A stretch of DNA of 64,000 nucleotides, taken from positions 1 through 64,000 of the forward strand of contig QGON01000066.1 in the NCBI GenBank assembly GCA_003660235.1, written 5' to 3'. This document shows, in pieces, positions 28,802 to 63,187 of this stretch (position 1 is its first letter; each line of letters opens with the position of its first letter). The DNA comes from a bacterium endosymbiont of Escarpia laminata. Lineage in GTDB: Bacteria; Pseudomonadota; Gammaproteobacteria; Chromatiales; Chromatiaceae. The notes under the pieces were generated by a model. The model was not told the DNA's origin. It saw nothing but the letters and a program-made list of their open reading frames with translations, and did not search any database. Position numbers and translations under genes: made by a program.

Positions 28802-28972
28802 GAGTGACTCCTGATTGTGTTGGGTTAGGCCTCCATACATCCCATGAATCGACCTCCCCGCGAAAGCTGGGAGGCACCCCGAACCATGTGCCGATGTATG
28901 TGTGGATTAGTTTTGCTCCCGCACGGGGAAAAACCCCGTAAAGTGAGCAGTGCGAACCGTTTGCGATTCAGC
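28802..28972 (-). promoter_or_regulatory. rpsB mRNA leader, likely S2 autoregulatory element
   Basis: The transcribed leader between the rpsB promoter and ATG is about 170 bases and structured. It has a hairpin ACGGGG-TTTTT-CCCCGT at its 5' part and a second pairing between GCCTCCCAGC and GCGGGGAGG nearer the gene. In gammaproteobacteria the rpsB leader binds S2 to repress rpsB-tsf. The position and double-hairpin form fit; I have not aligned it to the family model. Confidence 0.55.
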
Positions 28973-56110: not shown

Positions 56111-56134
56111 CCGGGAGGAAAAAACTCCTCCCGG
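56111..56134 (-). promoter_or_regulatory. Stem-loop between dsrC and dsrM
   Basis: CCGGGAGGA (56111-56119) and TCCTCCCGG (56126-56134) make a perfect 9-bp stem with an AAAAAC loop, 15 bases after the dsrC stop and 31 before the dsrM start. No T-run follows on the transcribed strand. Such a structure would protect the 3' end of a dsrC message or cause partial termination, fitting the higher DsrC demand as a sulfur carrier. Confidence 0.75.
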
Positions 56135-56148
56135 ACTTCAGCTACTGC

Positions 56149-56481
56149 TTAGATGCAGCCAGTAGGCTTGGGCAGACCGGCAAAGCGGCAAGCCTGCTTA
56201 CCAGGACCGTAAGGGAACAGACCGTACAAATACTTGCTGTTGCCCTTCTCTTTGCCCAGTTTCTTGCCAACAGCCTTGGTCAGAACGCGGACAGCAGGAG
56301 CGATCTGATACTCTTCGTAGTATTCACGCAGGAAGTTGATGATATCCCAGTGCTCATCAGTCAGCTCAAGGTCATCTTCCTTCGCCATCTCTTCTGCAAC
56401 TACGGGCTCCCAATCAGCCAGAGTTACCAGGTAACCCTCTTCGTCAGTCTCATAAACTTTACCGTTAGCTTCGATAGCCAT
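56149..56481 (-). CDS. dsrC: DsrC, sulfur-carrier protein with both cysteines
   Basis: 110 residues. The flexible C-terminal arm reads ACRFAGLPKPTGCI, with Cys98 and Cys109 eleven residues apart as in canonical DsrC, giving the trisulfide and disulfide chemistry between DsrEFH, DsrAB and DsrK. ATG 56481 follows GGAGAAATACT; a longer in-frame start at 56607 overlaps dsrH and is unlikely. It is the intact counterpart of the cysteine-less paralogue at 62313. Confidence 0.97.
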   Translation of the reverse strand: MAIEANGKVYETDEEGYLVTLADWEPVVAEEMAKEDDLELTDEHWDIINFLREYYEEYQIAPAVRVLTKAVGKKLGKEKGNSKYLYGLFPYGPGKQACRFAGLPKPTGCI

Positions 56482-56524
56482 AGTATTTCTCCAATTTAGA
56501 GTTAAATTATTCAGTTGGGATTTA

Positions 56525-56830
56525 TCAAACCCAGGCTGAAACTTTATCGTTTTCAACAGCCAGCTTGACAAAACCCGCGTAATCCACAACTTCAATGCCT
56601 TCAGCAAGCTTCTCTTGCGAGATGCCGCGGGCCTTCAGGTCAGAACCAAGTGCATAAAACTTGACACCCGATGCTGCAGCCACCTTCTCAGCAACGGCGT
56701 TACCCTTCATTGCCCCATAAACGCCATCTTCATACATCAGAACGGCGCTACCCTCTTTTGCATAACCCAGGCAATCTGCCAGTGAGTTCTTCTCAAAAGG
56801 GGATTTGTTAACAGTATGCAAAGTACTCAT
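56525..56830 (-). CDS. dsrH: DsrH (TusB-like) sulfurtransferase subunit
   Basis: 101 residues, third subunit of the DsrEFH hexamer that hands sulfur to DsrC. The conserved cysteine is Cys20 in SLADCLGYAKEG, the same number as in A. vinosum DsrH. It begins 15 bases after dsrF. Confidence 0.95.
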   Translation of the reverse strand: MSTLHTVNKSPFEKNSLADCLGYAKEGSAVLMYEDGVYGAMKGNAVAEKVAAASGVKFYALGSDLKARGISQEKLAEGIEVVDYAGFVKLAVENDKVSAWV

Positions 56831-56845
56831 GCGATCTCTCCGCCT

Positions 56846-57256
56846 TTAGAAGCTATAGATAACATCCTGGTCATCCAGGACGTCCGCCAATTCAGCGCGA
56901 CTGACGAGACGGATGGAGTCCTTCTCTGCCCAATCGTCATCTTCGTCTTCCCAGGTGAGAGGCATCAGGTCATCAAGGGTCAGGCCCCGCTCTTCCAGAG
57001 ACTCTTTCTCCACATAGAGCTTGGTAACATCGTAATCACCCAACGCCTTGTAAGTGGTGGAGAAGTTCTTCATATCGGACTCAGAGGTATCCTGACCTTC
57101 GAGCAGCTGATAGACCCCATCTCCGATAAACGCCAGACTGACATCCTGATCGAATGCAGCACCGATCAGCACAACCTCCAATGACTCCCACGCATAGATA
57201 GTGCCATAGGGGGCACGGCGGTTGAGATACATGAATTTCTTGATTTTTTCAGACAT
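56846..57256 (-). CDS. dsrF: DsrF (TusC-like) sulfurtransferase subunit
   Basis: 136 residues of the DsrE/TusC fold: FMYLNRRAPYGTIYAWESLEVVLIGAAFDQ and VSLAFIGDGVYQLLEGQDTS, which is the DsrF signature. It contains no cysteine, as in the A. vinosum subunit's lack of an essential one. It lies between dsrE and dsrH with 16-17 base gaps. Confidence 0.95.
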   Translation of the reverse strand: MSEKIKKFMYLNRRAPYGTIYAWESLEVVLIGAAFDQDVSLAFIGDGVYQLLEGQDTSESDMKNFSTTYKALGDYDVTKLYVEKESLEERGLTLDDLMPLTWEDEDDDWAEKDSIRLVSRAELADVLDDQDVIYSF

Positions 57257-57272
57257 CGTTCAACCTCTATAC

Positions 57273-57665
57273 TCAATCACCAAAAACCATGAGACGCTCG
57301 GACTGTATACCCGCCTCAATCAGCTGACCGAGACCGGAGATCCGGAATCCGTCAGCGATATTCTGGGCATCTTTACCGTTACGCTGCATCTCACCCTCGT
57401 CCACGATACCGCGACGTTGTGCGGCTGCCACGCAGACAACCATGTCGAGATCGTGCTCCTTGGCCAGTTCAGACCAGCGGTTGACGATGTTCCTGTCATC
57501 CTGGGGAGGTGTCGTCAGATTGGTACCGTTGTTCACGCCATCATGATAGAAGAAGACACGCATGATCTCGTGCCCGGCATCCAGCGCGGCTTTGGCGAAA
57601 TGGTAGGCTGAATCAGTCGCTTGATGCTGATAGGGCCCTTCGTTTACCTGAATCGCAAATTTCAT
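57273..57665 (-). CDS. dsrE: DsrE (TusD-like) sulfurtransferase subunit
   Basis: 130 residues. The active-site cysteine is Cys78 in DMVVCVAAAQRRG, counting from the ATG at 57665, identical in position to A. vinosum DsrE Cys78, which carries the sulfur to DsrC. A TTG one codon upstream is possible. DsrEFH with dsrL marks the cluster as oxidative rather than sulfate-reducing. Confidence 0.96.
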   Translation of the reverse strand: MKFAIQVNEGPYQHQATDSAYHFAKAALDAGHEIMRVFFYHDGVNNGTNLTTPPQDDRNIVNRWSELAKEHDLDMVVCVAAAQRRGIVDEGEMQRNGKDAQNIADGFRISGLGQLIEAGIQSERLMVFGD

Positions 57666-57708
57666 CAATTATAACCTTTCTGTTGAAAGACTTGAGCTTC
57701 GATCCGAA

Positions 57709-58782
57709 TCAGAAACGGATATGAGCAGAAGCGTTCAGGTTGGCACGACCGCCACGCCAGTTATCGATATGATACTTGGTGAAAGGCAATCCGGTCTTCT
57801 CGAAGAAGCTCGGCCATCCGATACGCTCGGCCCACTCGCCCATGCGCTCGTAGTCTTTTGCGTCTGCCTTGTAGGCAGCCAGGATCTGCTTGACGATCTT
57901 GGAGACCTCGGGCCAGCGCGGAGGATTGTTCGGCACGCCGGAGGCAACCAGCTTGTGGAAGGTTGGCTTGGAACGTGCGTTGGAGTGCTTGCCACCGACC
58001 CAGATTGCGAAATTGGAGTGCTCCGGATCGTTGATCTGCATCGGCGGACAGGGCGGGAAGCAGGCGCCGCAACAGATGCACTTCTTCTCATCTACTTCGA
58101 GAGAAGGCTTGCCGTTGACCATCGCGGGACGGATTGCCGCCACCGGGCAACGCGCCACAACTGTAGGACGCTCACAGACATTACCGACCTGAGAGTGATC
58201 GATCTTCGGCGGCTTGACGTGCTGAATGTTGATCGCGATATCACCCTGACCACCGCAGTTGATCTGACAGCAGGAAGAGGTCAGACGAACACGGTTCGGC
58301 ATCTCTTCATGGGTGAACTCATCGATGATCTCATCCATCAGCGCTTTAACAGCACCGGATGCGTCCGTTCCGGGAATATCGCAGTGTAACCAACCCTGGG
58401 TATGGGATACGGTGGAGACGGAATTACCGGTACCACCAATCGGGTTGCCGTGAGCCGTCAATGCGTCGATCAGCGGCTGAACCTTGGATTCCTCGCTAAC
58501 CATGAACTCCATGTTGGAGCGAATGGTAAAACGGATATAGCCTTCCGCATAATCATCAGCGATATCCATCAACTCGCGAATCTGATGAATGTCCATCTGA
58601 CGGGACGTGGCCGCACGGACAGTCCATATCTCGTCACCACTATGAGCCACATGATGCAAAACACCAGGGCGCGGACGATCGTGATACTTCCAGTTGCCGT
58701 AATTTTTCTTCATTACAGGATGCAGGAACTCCTGTATATCACGTACGCCTATCTCGTCTGGCATGCGAGGTGCGTCAGCCAT
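57709..58782 (-). CDS. dsrB: Dissimilatory sulfite reductase beta subunit
   Basis: About 357 residues. The siroheme-cluster motifs RLTSSCCQINCGGQGDIAI and the ferredoxin insert CICCGACFPPCPPM are present, together with PRPGVLHHVAHSGDEIWTV and TVSHTQGWLHC. It forms the DsrAB tetramer that, in this setting, oxidises DsrC-bound sulfur to sulfite. ATG 58782 follows TGGAGGTTAGC. A hairpin separates it from dsrA. Confidence 0.97.
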   Translation of the reverse strand: MADAPRMPDEIGVRDIQEFLHPVMKKNYGNWKYHDRPRPGVLHHVAHSGDEIWTVRAATSRQMDIHQIRELMDIADDYAEGYIRFTIRSNMEFMVSEESKVQPLIDALTAHGNPIGGTGNSVSTVSHTQGWLHCDIPGTDASGAVKALMDEIIDEFTHEEMPNRVRLTSSCCQINCGGQGDIAINIQHVKPPKIDHSQVGNVCERPTVVARCPVAAIRPAMVNGKPSLEVDEKKCICCGACFPPCPPMQINDPEHSNFAIWVGGKHSNARSKPTFHKLVASGVPNNPPRWPEVSKIVKQILAAYKADAKDYERMGEWAERIGWPSFFEKTGLPFTKYHIDNWRGGRANLNASAHIRF

Positions 58783-58849
58783 GCTAACCTCCAAATTTCA
58801 AAATCGAATTCTATTTTACGCAACAGCGTTGATATGTGGTTGACATGAG

Positions 58850-58883
58850 ACAAGTCACCGGGAAATAAATCCCAGCGACTTGT
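58850..58883 (-). promoter_or_regulatory. Stem-loop between dsrA and dsrB
   Basis: ACAAGTC (58850-58856) and GACTTGT (58877-58883) form a perfect outer stem, and CGGGA with TCCCAG inside pair further, leaving an AATAAA loop. It begins 13 bases after the dsrA stop. A structure at this place would stabilise or punctuate the message between the two subunits. Confidence 0.65.
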
Positions 58884-58895
58884 TTCATCGTCTTA

Positions 58896-60134
58896 CTAAG
58901 CTTTTCGCTCAGTCCACTTGGCAGCTTCCTCATCCCAGTTGTCCATACGAACATAGGGATTGGTACGAGGCTGAGAGATCATATTCGGATCGATTTCGAT
59001 ACCGATACCTTCCAGGAAGTTGGTCAGACCAATACGCTCGATCATCTCACCGGTACGCTCGTGCTCCAGTGCGTTCTCCGCAAAGAAGTCCAGAACTTCG
59101 GTACCCAACTCTTCCAGCCACTCAAAATCCTCATCGGTTTCCATCTTGTGGAAAGGCACGATGACTGTACCCATCAGATCGCCGATCTTCAGGGTACGCT
59201 TACCGCCAATCAGGATGCTAACGCCACCATCATCACCCGGAGAGAGGGCCTTGTTCATGACGTTCAGGCAGTGCATGCAACGCACGCAGTTGCCGTTATC
59301 AACAGCCAGGGTATCGTCGTCGTTCAGTGAGAGTGCCTTGGTCGGGCAGCGAGTGATGACATTGTCGATCACATACTTGCGGCCTTTTTTCTCCACGAAA
59401 GCCTTGACCTCAGCCTGGTCGACCTTCATGTCGTCGCGCCATGTACCGATGACAGCGAAATCAGAACGATGAATGGCATTCATGCAGTCGTTCGCGCAGC
59501 CGGAAACCTTATACTTCATCTTGTATGGCAGAGCCGGACGATGCAGATCGTCAAGCGCATTGTTCACCAGGGTGCGCATTGCCCGGCCTTCGTCGAAGTT
59601 GGACTGCTCGCAGCGGGCAGCACCGACGCAGGACATGGAGGTACGCACGGCGGGACCCGCGCCACCCATGTCGAAGCCCAGCTCATTGATTTCATTAAAG
59701 AAGGGCTGAACGTTCGCAGAGGAGCAACCCTGGAACATGATATCGCCGGACTGGCCGATACCGCAGATCAGACCGGATCCGTACTTCTCCCAGATATCGC
59801 ACATGGTGCGCAGTGTCTTGGTATCGAAGTGAGAGCCTGGAGGTGGCATGATGCGAATGGTGTGAAATTCAGCCGCATCAGGGAATTTGGGGGTTCCGTC
59901 CTCGTTCTTCAGCTCGGTAAAGCGGGGGATGACACCACCACCGTAGCCTATAACACCAACGGTGCCGCCCTTCCAGTAACCCTTCTTGGTCTCGTAGGAG
60001 GTCTCCAGCTGGCCCAGCAGGTCAACTGCAATGTCGTTATCTTTCGCAAGGCGCTTGATACCGCTGATAAAGCTTGGCCAGGGGCCGCTCTCCAGCTGAT
60101 CAAGCATGGGGGTGTCATGCATCTGTTTTGCCAT
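58896..60134 (-). CDS. dsrA: Dissimilatory sulfite reductase alpha subunit
   Basis: About 412 residues. The siroheme-[4Fe-4S] binding cysteines lie in SCVGAARCEQSNFDE and KVSGCANDCMNAIHRSD, and the ferredoxin domain has CPTKALSLND and CVRCMHCLNVMNKAL. Sulfite-binding arginine-rich text RTSMSCVGAARC precedes it. ATG 60134 after GGGAGAAAGAGTG. First gene of the dsr run, so its upstream region (60135-60641) holds the control of the cluster. Confidence 0.97.
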   Translation of the reverse strand: MAKQMHDTPMLDQLESGPWPSFISGIKRLAKDNDIAVDLLGQLETSYETKKGYWKGGTVGVIGYGGGVIPRFTELKNEDGTPKFPDAAEFHTIRIMPPPGSHFDTKTLRTMCDIWEKYGSGLICGIGQSGDIMFQGCSSANVQPFFNEINELGFDMGGAGPAVRTSMSCVGAARCEQSNFDEGRAMRTLVNNALDDLHRPALPYKMKYKVSGCANDCMNAIHRSDFAVIGTWRDDMKVDQAEVKAFVEKKGRKYVIDNVITRCPTKALSLNDDDTLAVDNGNCVRCMHCLNVMNKALSPGDDGGVSILIGGKRTLKIGDLMGTVIVPFHKMETDEDFEWLEELGTEVLDFFAENALEHERTGEMIERIGLTNFLEGIGIEIDPNMISQPRTNPYVRMDNWDEEAAKWTERKA

Positions 60135-60346
60135 CACTCTTTCTCCCAATGGTCGTTTGTGTAGGGTGTTTGGCCGGTTAATATCCTGTTTTAGTTAGCC
60201 CGGCCATAACACCGAGCGCAGGAACAGCCCTTTCCCCTGCAATACAATACCGTTGCAGGCGAAGACCTGCTCCTACTGGCGGCCAATTTTAGGAGTTCCT
60301 AATGCAGCACCATATCCTTCCGATGGGGGGGGGATCCGGCATTCTT

Positions 60347-60364
60347 CTATCCCATATGGGATAG
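60347..60364. promoter_or_regulatory. Perfect palindrome CTATCCCATATGGGATAG, candidate operator
   Basis: CTATCCCATATGGGATAG is an 18-bp perfect dyad (20 bp with the flanking T and A), about 213 bp upstream of dsrA and 278 bp upstream of the 60642 gene. Its half-sites of nine bases are the right size for a dimeric regulator. The regulator is unknown. Confidence 0.6.
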
Positions 60365-60641: not shown

Positions 60642-60818
60642 ATGCTCTATTTAAGTGAAGTAATGATGCAGAATCCTGACTTCGAAACATTTGAACAGCT
60701 TCAGACCGCCGTCAAAGAGCACTCAAAATCAGAGATGTTTTTCCGTATCGACGTAAAGCCGCCCTATCCGGATACACCGGAGAACTGGGAAGACCGACTG
60801 GAAGCCAGTTTCACCTAA
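60642..60818 (+). CDS. 58-residue conserved-looking small protein
   Basis: ATG at 60642 to TAA at 60816-60818 encodes 58 residues, MLYLSEVMMQNPDFETFEQL at the start and ending LEASFT. The text is compact and acidic with PPYPDTPENWEDRL near the end, unlike random frames. No ribosome site is strong. It starts the plus-strand gene group that runs away from dsrA and is 26 bases ahead of the next gene. I do not recognise a family. It is short enough to be missed by gene finders with a 60-codon cut-off. Confidence 0.6.
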   Translation: MLYLSEVMMQNPDFETFEQLQTAVKEHSKSEMFFRIDVKPPYPDTPENWEDRLEASFT

Positions 60819-60844
60819 CACCTGTTACACAACGAGAAGTGCCC

Positions 60845-61555
60845 GTGAAATATCTCGAATCAGAAACCTTCATCGGTGATGCGGAATGCTCAGATGATGC
60901 CATCAAGCCGACCCAACAGCTTGAGGAACGACTCAAAAAGCTGCTTGGAGAGGTCAACACACTTCCAAACGACGTCTCTATCGAGCAACGCCTCAAGCCC
61001 CTCCTTGAAAGCGGCTATATCATGCTTGATCTTGACCGCTTGGATGAAGCCTGGGAGATAACCCGCCCCACACTCGACCAATCCATCTCAGCCGGGCTGT
61101 GGCTGCAGGCGGTCGAAGCCTGCGACATTCTCTATCAGACCGGCAATGATGACGCCCTCAGAGCGCTGGCCCACGGCATCTGGCTCGGCGTCACCTTCCC
61201 CATCGAACCGGGGCTGAGCGTCGCCATGCTGCAGCATCTCGTTGACGAAACTCCGGACAATTCCGATGGCGCGGCAGTTGCCGCCGCCACTGCCGGCTAT
61301 ATTGCCGACATGCGTGCCGAGGGGCCGGACCGGGAGGAGTTGAAGTTTTTCACCAACCAATTGATGGGCCAGGTCGCCCGCCGCCACAGCCAGGTCGAGG
61401 AGCAGGAGATCTTCGACTTCTGGGTGGAGCGCATGGAACTGGATGACCCGTCCAAGTTTTTACCCCGACTGGCCCAGGTGCTTGACATAGTCAACGAGAA
61501 CGGCTGGTGGTTCGATCGCGAAGAACTGAGAGGCAGGATCCCAGCGGATCCGTAA
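60845..61555 (+). CDS. Helical protein of unknown function in the dsr-divergent module
   Basis: About 236 residues, all predicted helices, acidic, with no membrane segment. One stretch around residues 50-110 (DLDRLDEAWEITRPTLDQSI, LWLQAVEACDILYQTGNDDA) looks like tetratricopeptide-type repeats. The GTG at 60845 follows GAGAAGTGCCC; a GTG at 60839 is the alternative. Not a known Dsr protein. It is co-directional with the 58-residue gene and the Cmx6-like gene (17-base gap), so the three are likely one operon. Confidence 0.75.
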   Translation: MKYLESETFIGDAECSDDAIKPTQQLEERLKKLLGEVNTLPNDVSIEQRLKPLLESGYIMLDLDRLDEAWEITRPTLDQSISAGLWLQAVEACDILYQTGNDDALRALAHGIWLGVTFPIEPGLSVAMLQHLVDETPDNSDGAAVAAATAGYIADMRAEGPDREELKFFTNQLMGQVARRHSQVEEQEIFDFWVERMELDDPSKFLPRLAQVLDIVNENGWWFDREELRGRIPADP

Positions 61556-61572: not shown

Positions 61573-62232
61573 ATGCACTGGCAAGAAGAAATCGATGAAA
61601 CGGTCTATATCGTTCCCGACAACGTAATGGACCTTGCCTACCAGATAAAATGCCGGACACTGCCGGTCGACCACGCCTGGCCGCTGGCTGCAGCGATACA
61701 TCAGGCACTGCCCTGGTTTGCAGAGGAGCCGTTGGCTGGATTACACCTCATCTATGGCGCCGACTCCGGCAATGGTTGGGAGCGCCCCCGGGATGCCGCT
61801 GCCACCCTCTATCTCTCACGCCGTACCCGCCTTGTCCTGCGCCTGCCCAAACACCGCCTCCCCGACGCCGAGGCCCTTACAGGACAGACACTGGAGGTAG
61901 CGGACAATCTATTGGAGATCGGCAAGGGCACACCCCGGCTGCTCGGCATGACCACCACCCTCTACTCTCGCTTTGTCGTGGATGAAACGGACGGCGACGA
62001 GGATCAGTTCATAACAGCTGCAGTCGAAGGCCTGCGCGCCCTGAATCTGCGTTTCACGAAAGTACTCAGCGGCAGGCGCTACGCTTTCTCCACACCGGAG
62101 GGTGAGATTTCCACGCGCAGCCTGATGGTGGCCGGTCTGCCTCTGGATCACGCGGTGAGGTTACAGGAGAATGGTCTCGGCCCCCTCCGAAATCGCGGAT
62201 TCGGCTTGTTCGTCCCCCAAAAGTCTGTTTAA
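61573..62232 (+). CDS. Orphan type I-MYXAN Cas6/Cmx6-family protein
   Basis: About 219 residues. The order and spacing of motifs match Cmx6 (Cas6 of the Myxococcus-type I system): LPVDHAWPLAAAIHQALPWF near residue 40, LHLIYG, RRTRLVLRLPKHRLPDA, ALTGQTLEVADNLLEIG, SRFVV, an ADMRALN-like alpha region, and a C-terminal glycine-rich loop LQENGLGPLRNRGFGLFVP typical of RAMP-fold Cas6 endoribonucleases. No cas gene or CRISPR array is near. Between the helical gene and the DsrC-like gene, it is part of the dsr-divergent unit. Function unknown: RNA binding or cleavage is likely from family. Confidence 0.8.
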   Translation: MHWQEEIDETVYIVPDNVMDLAYQIKCRTLPVDHAWPLAAAIHQALPWFAEEPLAGLHLIYGADSGNGWERPRDAAATLYLSRRTRLVLRLPKHRLPDAEALTGQTLEVADNLLEIGKGTPRLLGMTTTLYSRFVVDETDGDEDQFITAAVEGLRALNLRFTKVLSGRRYAFSTPEGEISTRSLMVAGLPLDHAVRLQENGLGPLRNRGFGLFVPQKSV

Positions 62233-62312: not shown

Positions 62313-62657
62313 ATGTCGTACGAAGTAAATGGTGCAACCGTCGAGGCCGACGATCACGGTTACCTGGTCAACACAGCCGATTGGAACGAGGATGTCGCCA
62401 AAGCCATCGCTGCCGCTGAAGGTGTTGAACTGTCCGAGAAGGGCTGGGATATCGTCAACTACCTGCGTGATGAGTACATCAACAACAACGGCAACCAGCC
62501 CAATGAACGTAACATGGTCAAGCACTTCAAGAAAGTCTGGACCGATCTCCCAAAGGTGGACACCAAGGCACTCTACAATGAGTTCCCCACCGGCCCCGCA
62601 AAACAGGCGGGTAAAATCGCCGGCACGCCTGAGACCAAACGTAAGGGCGGGTATTAA
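62313..62657 (+). CDS. DsrC/TusE-family paralogue lacking both catalytic cysteines
   Basis: 114 residues. It aligns well by eye with DsrC: YEVNGATVEADDHGYLVNTA (as in DsrC's VYETDEEGYLVTLADWE), GWDIVNYLRDEY and GPAKQAGKIAGTPETK. Where DsrC has Cys98 (KQACRFAGLP) this has Gly or Ala (KQAGKIAGTP), and the C-terminal Cys-containing tail is replaced by KRKGGY. So it cannot carry sulfur through the usual chemistry. ATG 62313 follows AAGGAGAAATCA. It closes the plus-strand group. A regulatory or RNA-linked role is possible. Confidence 0.88.
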   Translation: MSYEVNGATVEADDHGYLVNTADWNEDVAKAIAAAEGVELSEKGWDIVNYLRDEYINNNGNQPNERNMVKHFKKVWTDLPKVDTKALYNEFPTGPAKQAGKIAGTPETKRKGGY

Positions 62658-62803: not shown

Positions 62804-63187
62804 TTAGCCTTCCTTAACCTTCTCCAACAGCGGCTCCAGATCTGATTCCCCAACAGGAAAAGTGCAAACCCCAAACAGCGGATAGCGCTGCTGCACCTTA
62901 TCGAGCCGATATTGGTGGTTGGGATCGTATAGGACGATGACCCGGCTATCTGGACTGTATTTCTGCAGGGCCGCCATCAGTGACTCGAGATTACTCATCC
63001 TGTCACGAAATTCTGCATCAAAATTGAACTCAGTGACCACCACTGCAGGCGTGTGTGTTTTCAGCCAGGCCTGCGCCTTTCTCACCGAATTGACTGTCTC
63101 GACCTGATAGCCGTGACGTTGATAAAGCGGCGTGAAATTGGGATAACCACCAAACTCCACCACCGCAAGTAATTCCCGATCTTTCAT
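62804..63187 (-). CDS. Receiver-like hypothetical protein
   Basis: 127 residues with alternating strand/helix text of a response-regulator-type fold: LLAVVEFGGYPNF, AVVVTEFNFDAEFRDR, DSRVIVLYDPNHQY and LFGVCTFPVGESDLEPLLEKV. The usual phospho-aspartate triad is not clear; the third strand ends in TEFNFD rather than LLD-type text. It could be a pseudo-receiver. It is divergent from the 63257 gene and shares the region between them, so the two may be functionally paired. ATG at 63187. Confidence 0.65.
   Translation of the reverse strand: MKDRELLAVVEFGGYPNFTPLYQRHGYQVETVNSVRKAQAWLKTHTPAVVVTEFNFDAEFRDRMSNLESLMAALQKYSPDSRVIVLYDPNHQYRLDKVQQRYPLFGVCTFPVGESDLEPLLEKVKEG

Follow-up and report, generated by a model that had tools for sequence, protein, structure and literature searches.

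A Cas6-family protein encoded divergently from dsrA is a conserved companion of the dsr genes in beta/gamma-type sulfur oxidizers

The stretch of DNA analysed here (the window: 64,000 nucleotides of contig QGON01000066.1, from a bacterium endosymbiont of Escarpia laminata) carries, divergently from dsrA, a gene coding a protein of the Cas6 family. This gene, called cas6 below, is a conserved companion of dsr genes in beta/gamma-type sulfur oxidizers and not a stray CRISPR gene. Its domestication into the dsr context, proposed as one option in an earlier note made from the sequence, is very probable and fits the Cas6 family membership, the linkage to dsr and the absence of linkage to CRISPR. 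The reading favoured here, with confidence somewhat better than even, is that of an exapted Cas6 endoribonuclease of CRISPR origin, member of a dsr accessory operon, that recognises and probably cuts one RNA stem-loop and tunes the Dsr pathway.

Family and fold of the cas6 product

The cas6 product is a Cas6-family protein with a Cas6 fold. Profile searches gave a match to PF09559 of 176.1 bits (E 1e-51; cut-off 26.7) and a match to TIGR02807 (cas6_cmx6) of 102.7 bits, just above the cut-off of 98.85. The AlphaFold model, built from 30 sequences (mean predicted local distance difference test score 90.9), is a full-length Cas6 fold of tandem RRM-like domains when compared with structures of the PDB. 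Its top match is the Cas6 of a type I-B CRISPR-associated transposon (CAST; 8fcj_B, TM-score 0.83, E 3e-16), with which it aligns over 198 residues (Z 25.7), followed by Cas6 of Pyrococcus and by Cas6e. The assignment to the Cas6/Cmx6 family in the earlier note is borne out by scores above both cut-offs, and the glycine-rich carboxyl terminal loop that it described is present. Its wording “type I-MYXAN Cas6/Cmx6” is correct as a family name; it does not apply as a type, the clade of dsr-linked proteins being sister to that of the CRISPR-linked ones.

Linkage to dsr genes across genomes

The family is found in 188 of the 210 genomes of the order to which the window belongs, almost always in single copy, and ten genomes of this order (four genera) that lack a true dsrA also lack cas6. 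A class-level sample of 369 evenly chosen genomes comprises 118 with cas6, 117 with dsrA, 110 with both and 244 with neither (Fisher odds ratio 479, uncorrected for relatedness). Where the two genes lie on one contig they are at most 6 kb apart in 80 of 82 genomes; all these 80 pairs are divergent, with a median gap of 1.7 kb. Several exceptions to the pairing are contig ends: the cas6 operon hits a contig end in the three cas6-only genomes that were examined, one of which has a dsrA fragment, and most of the dsrA-only cases examined start at dsrA. In a few lineages cas6 was relocated, all these copies nesting within the dsr-linked clade of the protein tree. Those whose neighbours were scanned lie beside RNA- or ribosome-related genes, namely RNase III and era (L046), dihydrouridine synthase (L040) and Obg (L050). 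The gene is retained in genomes of 1.0–1.1 Mb.

In a search for further loci, 555 stretches matched and 80 named loci were kept. They carry the label of Gammaproteobacteria or of one of their subgroups, except for one recorded only as Proteobacteria, one from an unclassified bacterium and one from a metagenome-assembled genome labelled archaeal. Carriers include Thiohalobacter thiocyanaticus, Thioalkalivibrio denitrificans and a Thiothrix. The phylum sample holds three dsrA genomes of the same class besides the one of the window; cas6 adjoins dsrA and is accompanied by the DsrC paralog described below in all three. It was found in none of the 47 dsrA-bearing genomes of other classes in this sample, oxidative and other dsr types being pooled.

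Relation to CRISPR-Cas systems

No CRISPR-like array was found within the 64-kb window, in agreement with the earlier note. All Cas1 matches of the genome lie on other contigs, not every open reading frame of the window having been scanned against every cas family. The genome does carry CRISPR-Cas elsewhere, in the form of a type III locus with a reverse transcriptase–Cas1 fusion (RT-Cas1) and a short array, and of a 34-repeat array. Note that no Cas6 was recognised in the type III locus, whose array has 6 copies and is adjoined by the gene of a 269-residue protein with no family match.

The presence of cas6 is independent of Cas1. The latter occurs in 39% of cas6 carriers and in 32% of non-carriers (p 0.24; 369 genomes), and 72 of the 118 carriers have no Cas1, among them single-contig genomes and genomes of 1.0–1.1 Mb. 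The earlier note had named co-occurrence with CRISPR rather than with dsr as evidence that would speak against it; these figures and the 80 same-contig pairs tie cas6 to dsr instead.

Five second cas6 copies (L041–L045) contrast with the dsr-linked ones. Arrays are present in the fetched stretch for four of them. Cas-gene neighbours were scanned for L041 and L045, which both lie among type I-MYXAN genes (Cas3, Cas5 and Cas4-Cas1, with Cmx8 and a Cas7-type gene in addition in L041). In the tree, whose rooting was assumed to be on the CRISPR side, these five copies and copies from cyanobacterial plasmids are separated from all dsr-linked proteins with a branch support of 99. The plasmid matches of the family are these cyanobacterial CRISPR copies, and no relative was found in phage records. 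The window locus differs from type I-MYXAN on each count: it has no array in the window, its operon is of the dsr type and its protein does not group with CRISPR-linked Cmx6.

These data bear on the alternative that the protein is an orphan CRISPR Cas6 processing CRISPR RNA in trans for systems located elsewhere in the genome. The CRISPR origin of the family and the RT-Cas1 locus with no recognised Cas6 are in its favour, but the lack of association with Cas1 over the 369 genomes, the retention of cas6 in closed and 1-Mb genomes devoid of Cas1, its strict synteny with dsr and its separation from the clade of CRISPR Cas6 make it highly improbable.

Conserved residues and selection

His34 is invariant in all 131 dsr-linked proteins aligned and, together with Arg90, Gly209 and Gly211, is invariant in both the dsr and the CRISPR clades. 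The protein features a histidine where the first helix begins and a carboxyl terminal glycine-rich loop, as found in the Cas6 family; the equivalence of His34 to the catalytic histidine of other Cas6 proteins was judged by position, without superposition. The NGWxRP loop is an insert found in the dsr clade only and is missing from the CRISPR clade. The ratio of nonsynonymous to synonymous substitution rates of the gene is 0.14–0.15 in two genera and the gene is thus under purifying selection. Both this ratio and the invariance of the histidine point to an enzyme that still works, and RNA cleavage by dsr-linked Cas6 is considered probable.

The same residues can be viewed differently, as those of a Cas6-fold RNA-binding or scaffold subunit that does not cleave and is complexed with the DsrC paralog and other Dsr proteins, being RNA-bound or structural as in CAST. 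The nearest relative with a solved structure serves as a Cascade subunit in a type I-B CAST and has an asparagine at the His34 position in the profile alignment, the new NGWxRP loop conserved in the dsr clade suggests a new partner surface, and no neighbour is more constant across gamma and the three beta-like loci than the cysteine-poor DsrC paralog. The invariance of His34 in 131 proteins exceeds, nevertheless, the needs of binding alone, and such a subunit is held to be unlikely.

The accessory operon

The earlier note had placed cas6 in a group of genes divergent from dsrA and adjoining a DsrC-type gene, an arrangement recovered here (Table 1). Over 128 loci the gene order is tauD/dsrQ, o4 (coding 58–65 residues), sometimes the gene of a 238-residue helical protein, cas6 and the gene of a DsrC-family protein. 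TauD/dsrQ is the first operon gene in 67 loci; it was lost from the window, where the distance between dsrA and o4 is just 493 bp. Gene o4 adjoins or lies near cas6 in 115 of the 128 loci, the helical protein is present in 38 and the cysteine-less DsrC paralog in 95. Divergent dsrA was found in 85 of the 128, more than 3.5 kb of upstream sequence being available in 90 loci. The DsrC-family paralog terminates in RKGGY, and 100 of its 108 representatives contain no cysteine; in the window it is distinguished from canonical DsrC by the absence of the two carboxyl terminal cysteines. Beside the operon lies the gene of a short protein with a weak match to VpsR/receiver domains. The genome also has, on another contig, a second pair of dsrAB, whose genes overlap and which is unlinked to cas6; similar second pairs occur in several other genera.

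Table 1. Features of the window around dsrA and other elements cited in the text.
Feature	Position	Strand	Remarks
t44 RNA	28824..28922	-	known RNA family
10-bp hairpin, dsrC-dsrM junction	56111..56134	-	candidate, not specific to Cas6 carriers
dsrE, dsrF, dsrH, canonical dsrC	56149..57668	-	DsrC carboxyl terminus CRFAGLPKPTGCI; dsrEFH named by gene order and sequence by eye
dsrB	57709..58794	-	
14-bp hairpin, dsrA-dsrB junction	58850..58883	-	candidate, not specific to Cas6 carriers
dsrA	58896..60149	-	divergent from cas6 operon
Palindrome TATCCCATATGGGATA (TATCCC-N4-GGGATA)	60348..60363		sole exact match in genome; divergent promoter region
o4	60642..60818	+	58-residue conserved protein, no known family
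Helical protein	60839..61555	+	238 residues, weakly TPR-like, optional operon member
cas6	61573..62232	+	219 residues, ATG start; glycine-rich carboxyl terminal loop GLGPLRNRGFGLF; candidate catalytic His34; NGWERP loop 67–72
DsrC-family paralog	62313..62657	+	PF04358, E 4e-31; no cysteines, carboxyl terminus RKGGY
Short protein	62804..63187	-	weak VpsR/receiver-domain match

Four of the 47 dsrA genomes of other classes have tauD-o4 divergent from dsrA and no cas6. Therefore, cas6 appears to have been added in one branch to an older dsrQ-o4 arrangement, the direction being inferred. As o4 accompanies tauD where there is no cas6, it was ruled out as a dedicated Cas6 partner. The confident structure model of o4 had no match in the PDB. 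The divergent position of dsrQ relative to dsr had already been described (Lenk et al. 2012, cited in PMC7596348).

The presence of a TusE/DsrC-family protein in the operon also allows a role on tRNA or other non-dsr RNA, as an RNase or as an RNA-binding protein, which would couple the sulfur relay of tRNA thiolation to sulfur oxidation. The relocated copies that adjoin RNase III-era, dus or obg genes agree with it. They are few, however, and may be due to chance, and the operon has no constant tRNA-related gene; a function of this kind is regarded as improbable.

Candidate RNA targets

Processing of dsr transcripts, which the earlier note had suggested, is not sustained by the hairpins found. 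Strong hairpins inside the operon, at z < -2, occur at the dsrA-dsrB junction in 45% of loci and at the dsrC-dsrM junction in 67%; in many loci the 5' arm of the latter is rich in G. Both were rejected as Cas6 targets: although common, they are also present where a dsr locus has no Cas6. The dsr operons yielded no hairpin restricted to Cas6 carriers, and no conserved RNA structure backed by covariation was found around the cas6 operon in two groups of relatives. The Rfam search of the window returned only t44.

In most dsr loci of the gamma group the TATCCC-N4-GGGATA palindrome is situated some 200 bp upstream of dsrA, at least 10 of its 12 arm positions being kept in 72 of 85 dsr loci. It was ruled out as an RNA hairpin because changes in its arms are strand-symmetric (17 versus 18 wobble/mismatch cases). 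The palindrome is likely a DNA operator of an unnamed dsr regulator.

Proposed role

Several observations weigh against a Cas6 endoribonuclease that tunes the Dsr pathway. No RNA target was found among the dsr-operon hairpins, the upstream palindrome and RNA structures of the cas6 operon; the two junction hairpins also belong to loci devoid of Cas6, and the dsrA-dsrB one is missing from several Cas6 carriers. Oxidative dsr operons of other classes function without Cas6, and o4 does occur without it. The Fisher test is inflated by kinship among genomes and the invariance of the histidine is no proof of cleavage. Since the target was searched for and not found while conservation is enzyme-like, domestication is graded above cleavage, and cleavage above a target within the Dsr pathway, whose likelihood is put slightly short of even.

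According to the favoured reading, a Cas6-family endoribonuclease would have been recruited from CRISPR-Cas before the radiation of beta/gamma-type oxidative-Dsr sulfur oxidizers, a direction that we infer. It would have been kept since then in the operon dsrQ/tauD, o4, (helical protein), cas6 and cysteine-less dsrC paralog, divergent from dsrA. Like other Cas6 enzymes, it may still recognise, and probably cut, a single specific stem-loop of RNA; the cut, or the bound Cas6, would adjust how strongly the Dsr pathway is expressed or how active it is. The DsrC paralog, which should be unable to carry sulfur on the usual cysteines, perhaps acts with Cas6 as a sensor or adaptor. That the two form a sulfur-responsive RNA-processing switch by which hundreds of beta/gamma-type oxidizers control their oxidative Dsr pathway is a tentative extension, rather unlikely.

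If the favoured reading holds, an RNA-processing enzyme of CRISPR would have been taken permanently into energy metabolism, in carriers that belong to the dominant sulfur-oxidizing bacteria of sediments, vents and symbioses. The finding extends the dsr system by a conserved operon, makes the question of dsr gene regulation testable and accounts for a systematic database error, as automatic annotation names the family a CRISPR protein.

Comparison with known systems

A literature search for Cas6 with dsr found no description of such a link, in line with the earlier note, to which no such role was known. The type I-MYXAN Cas6/Cmx6 proteins (TIGR02807, PF09559) share with the dsr-linked ones family, fold, glycine-rich loop, the invariant histidine and Arg90. 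They differ in being encoded in cas3-cmx8-devR-devS-cas4/1 loci with arrays, in lacking NGWxRP and in forming a separate clade; their TIGR02807 scores are about 190 bits versus 103–144 for the dsr-linked proteins tested. The Cas6 of type I-B CAST (PDB 8fcj, 8fcu) is the closest solved structure over the full length (Z 25.7), but it belongs to a Cascade-transposon complex, and its residue aligned with His34 is an asparagine. The dsrQ arrangement, whose description as given in PMC7596348 does not mention Cas6, has dsrQ in common with the operon seen here, which this gene heads in 67 loci; it differs by the loss of dsrQ in the window and by the dsrQ-o4 pairs without cas6 in other classes. Finally, the DsrC of A. 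vinosum binds DNA upstream of dsr (Grimm et al. 2010, as mentioned in PMC5944118). A DsrC-family gene is likewise found beside the dsr regulatory region in the window, whose paralog is set apart from the A. vinosum protein by the absence of both functional cysteines.
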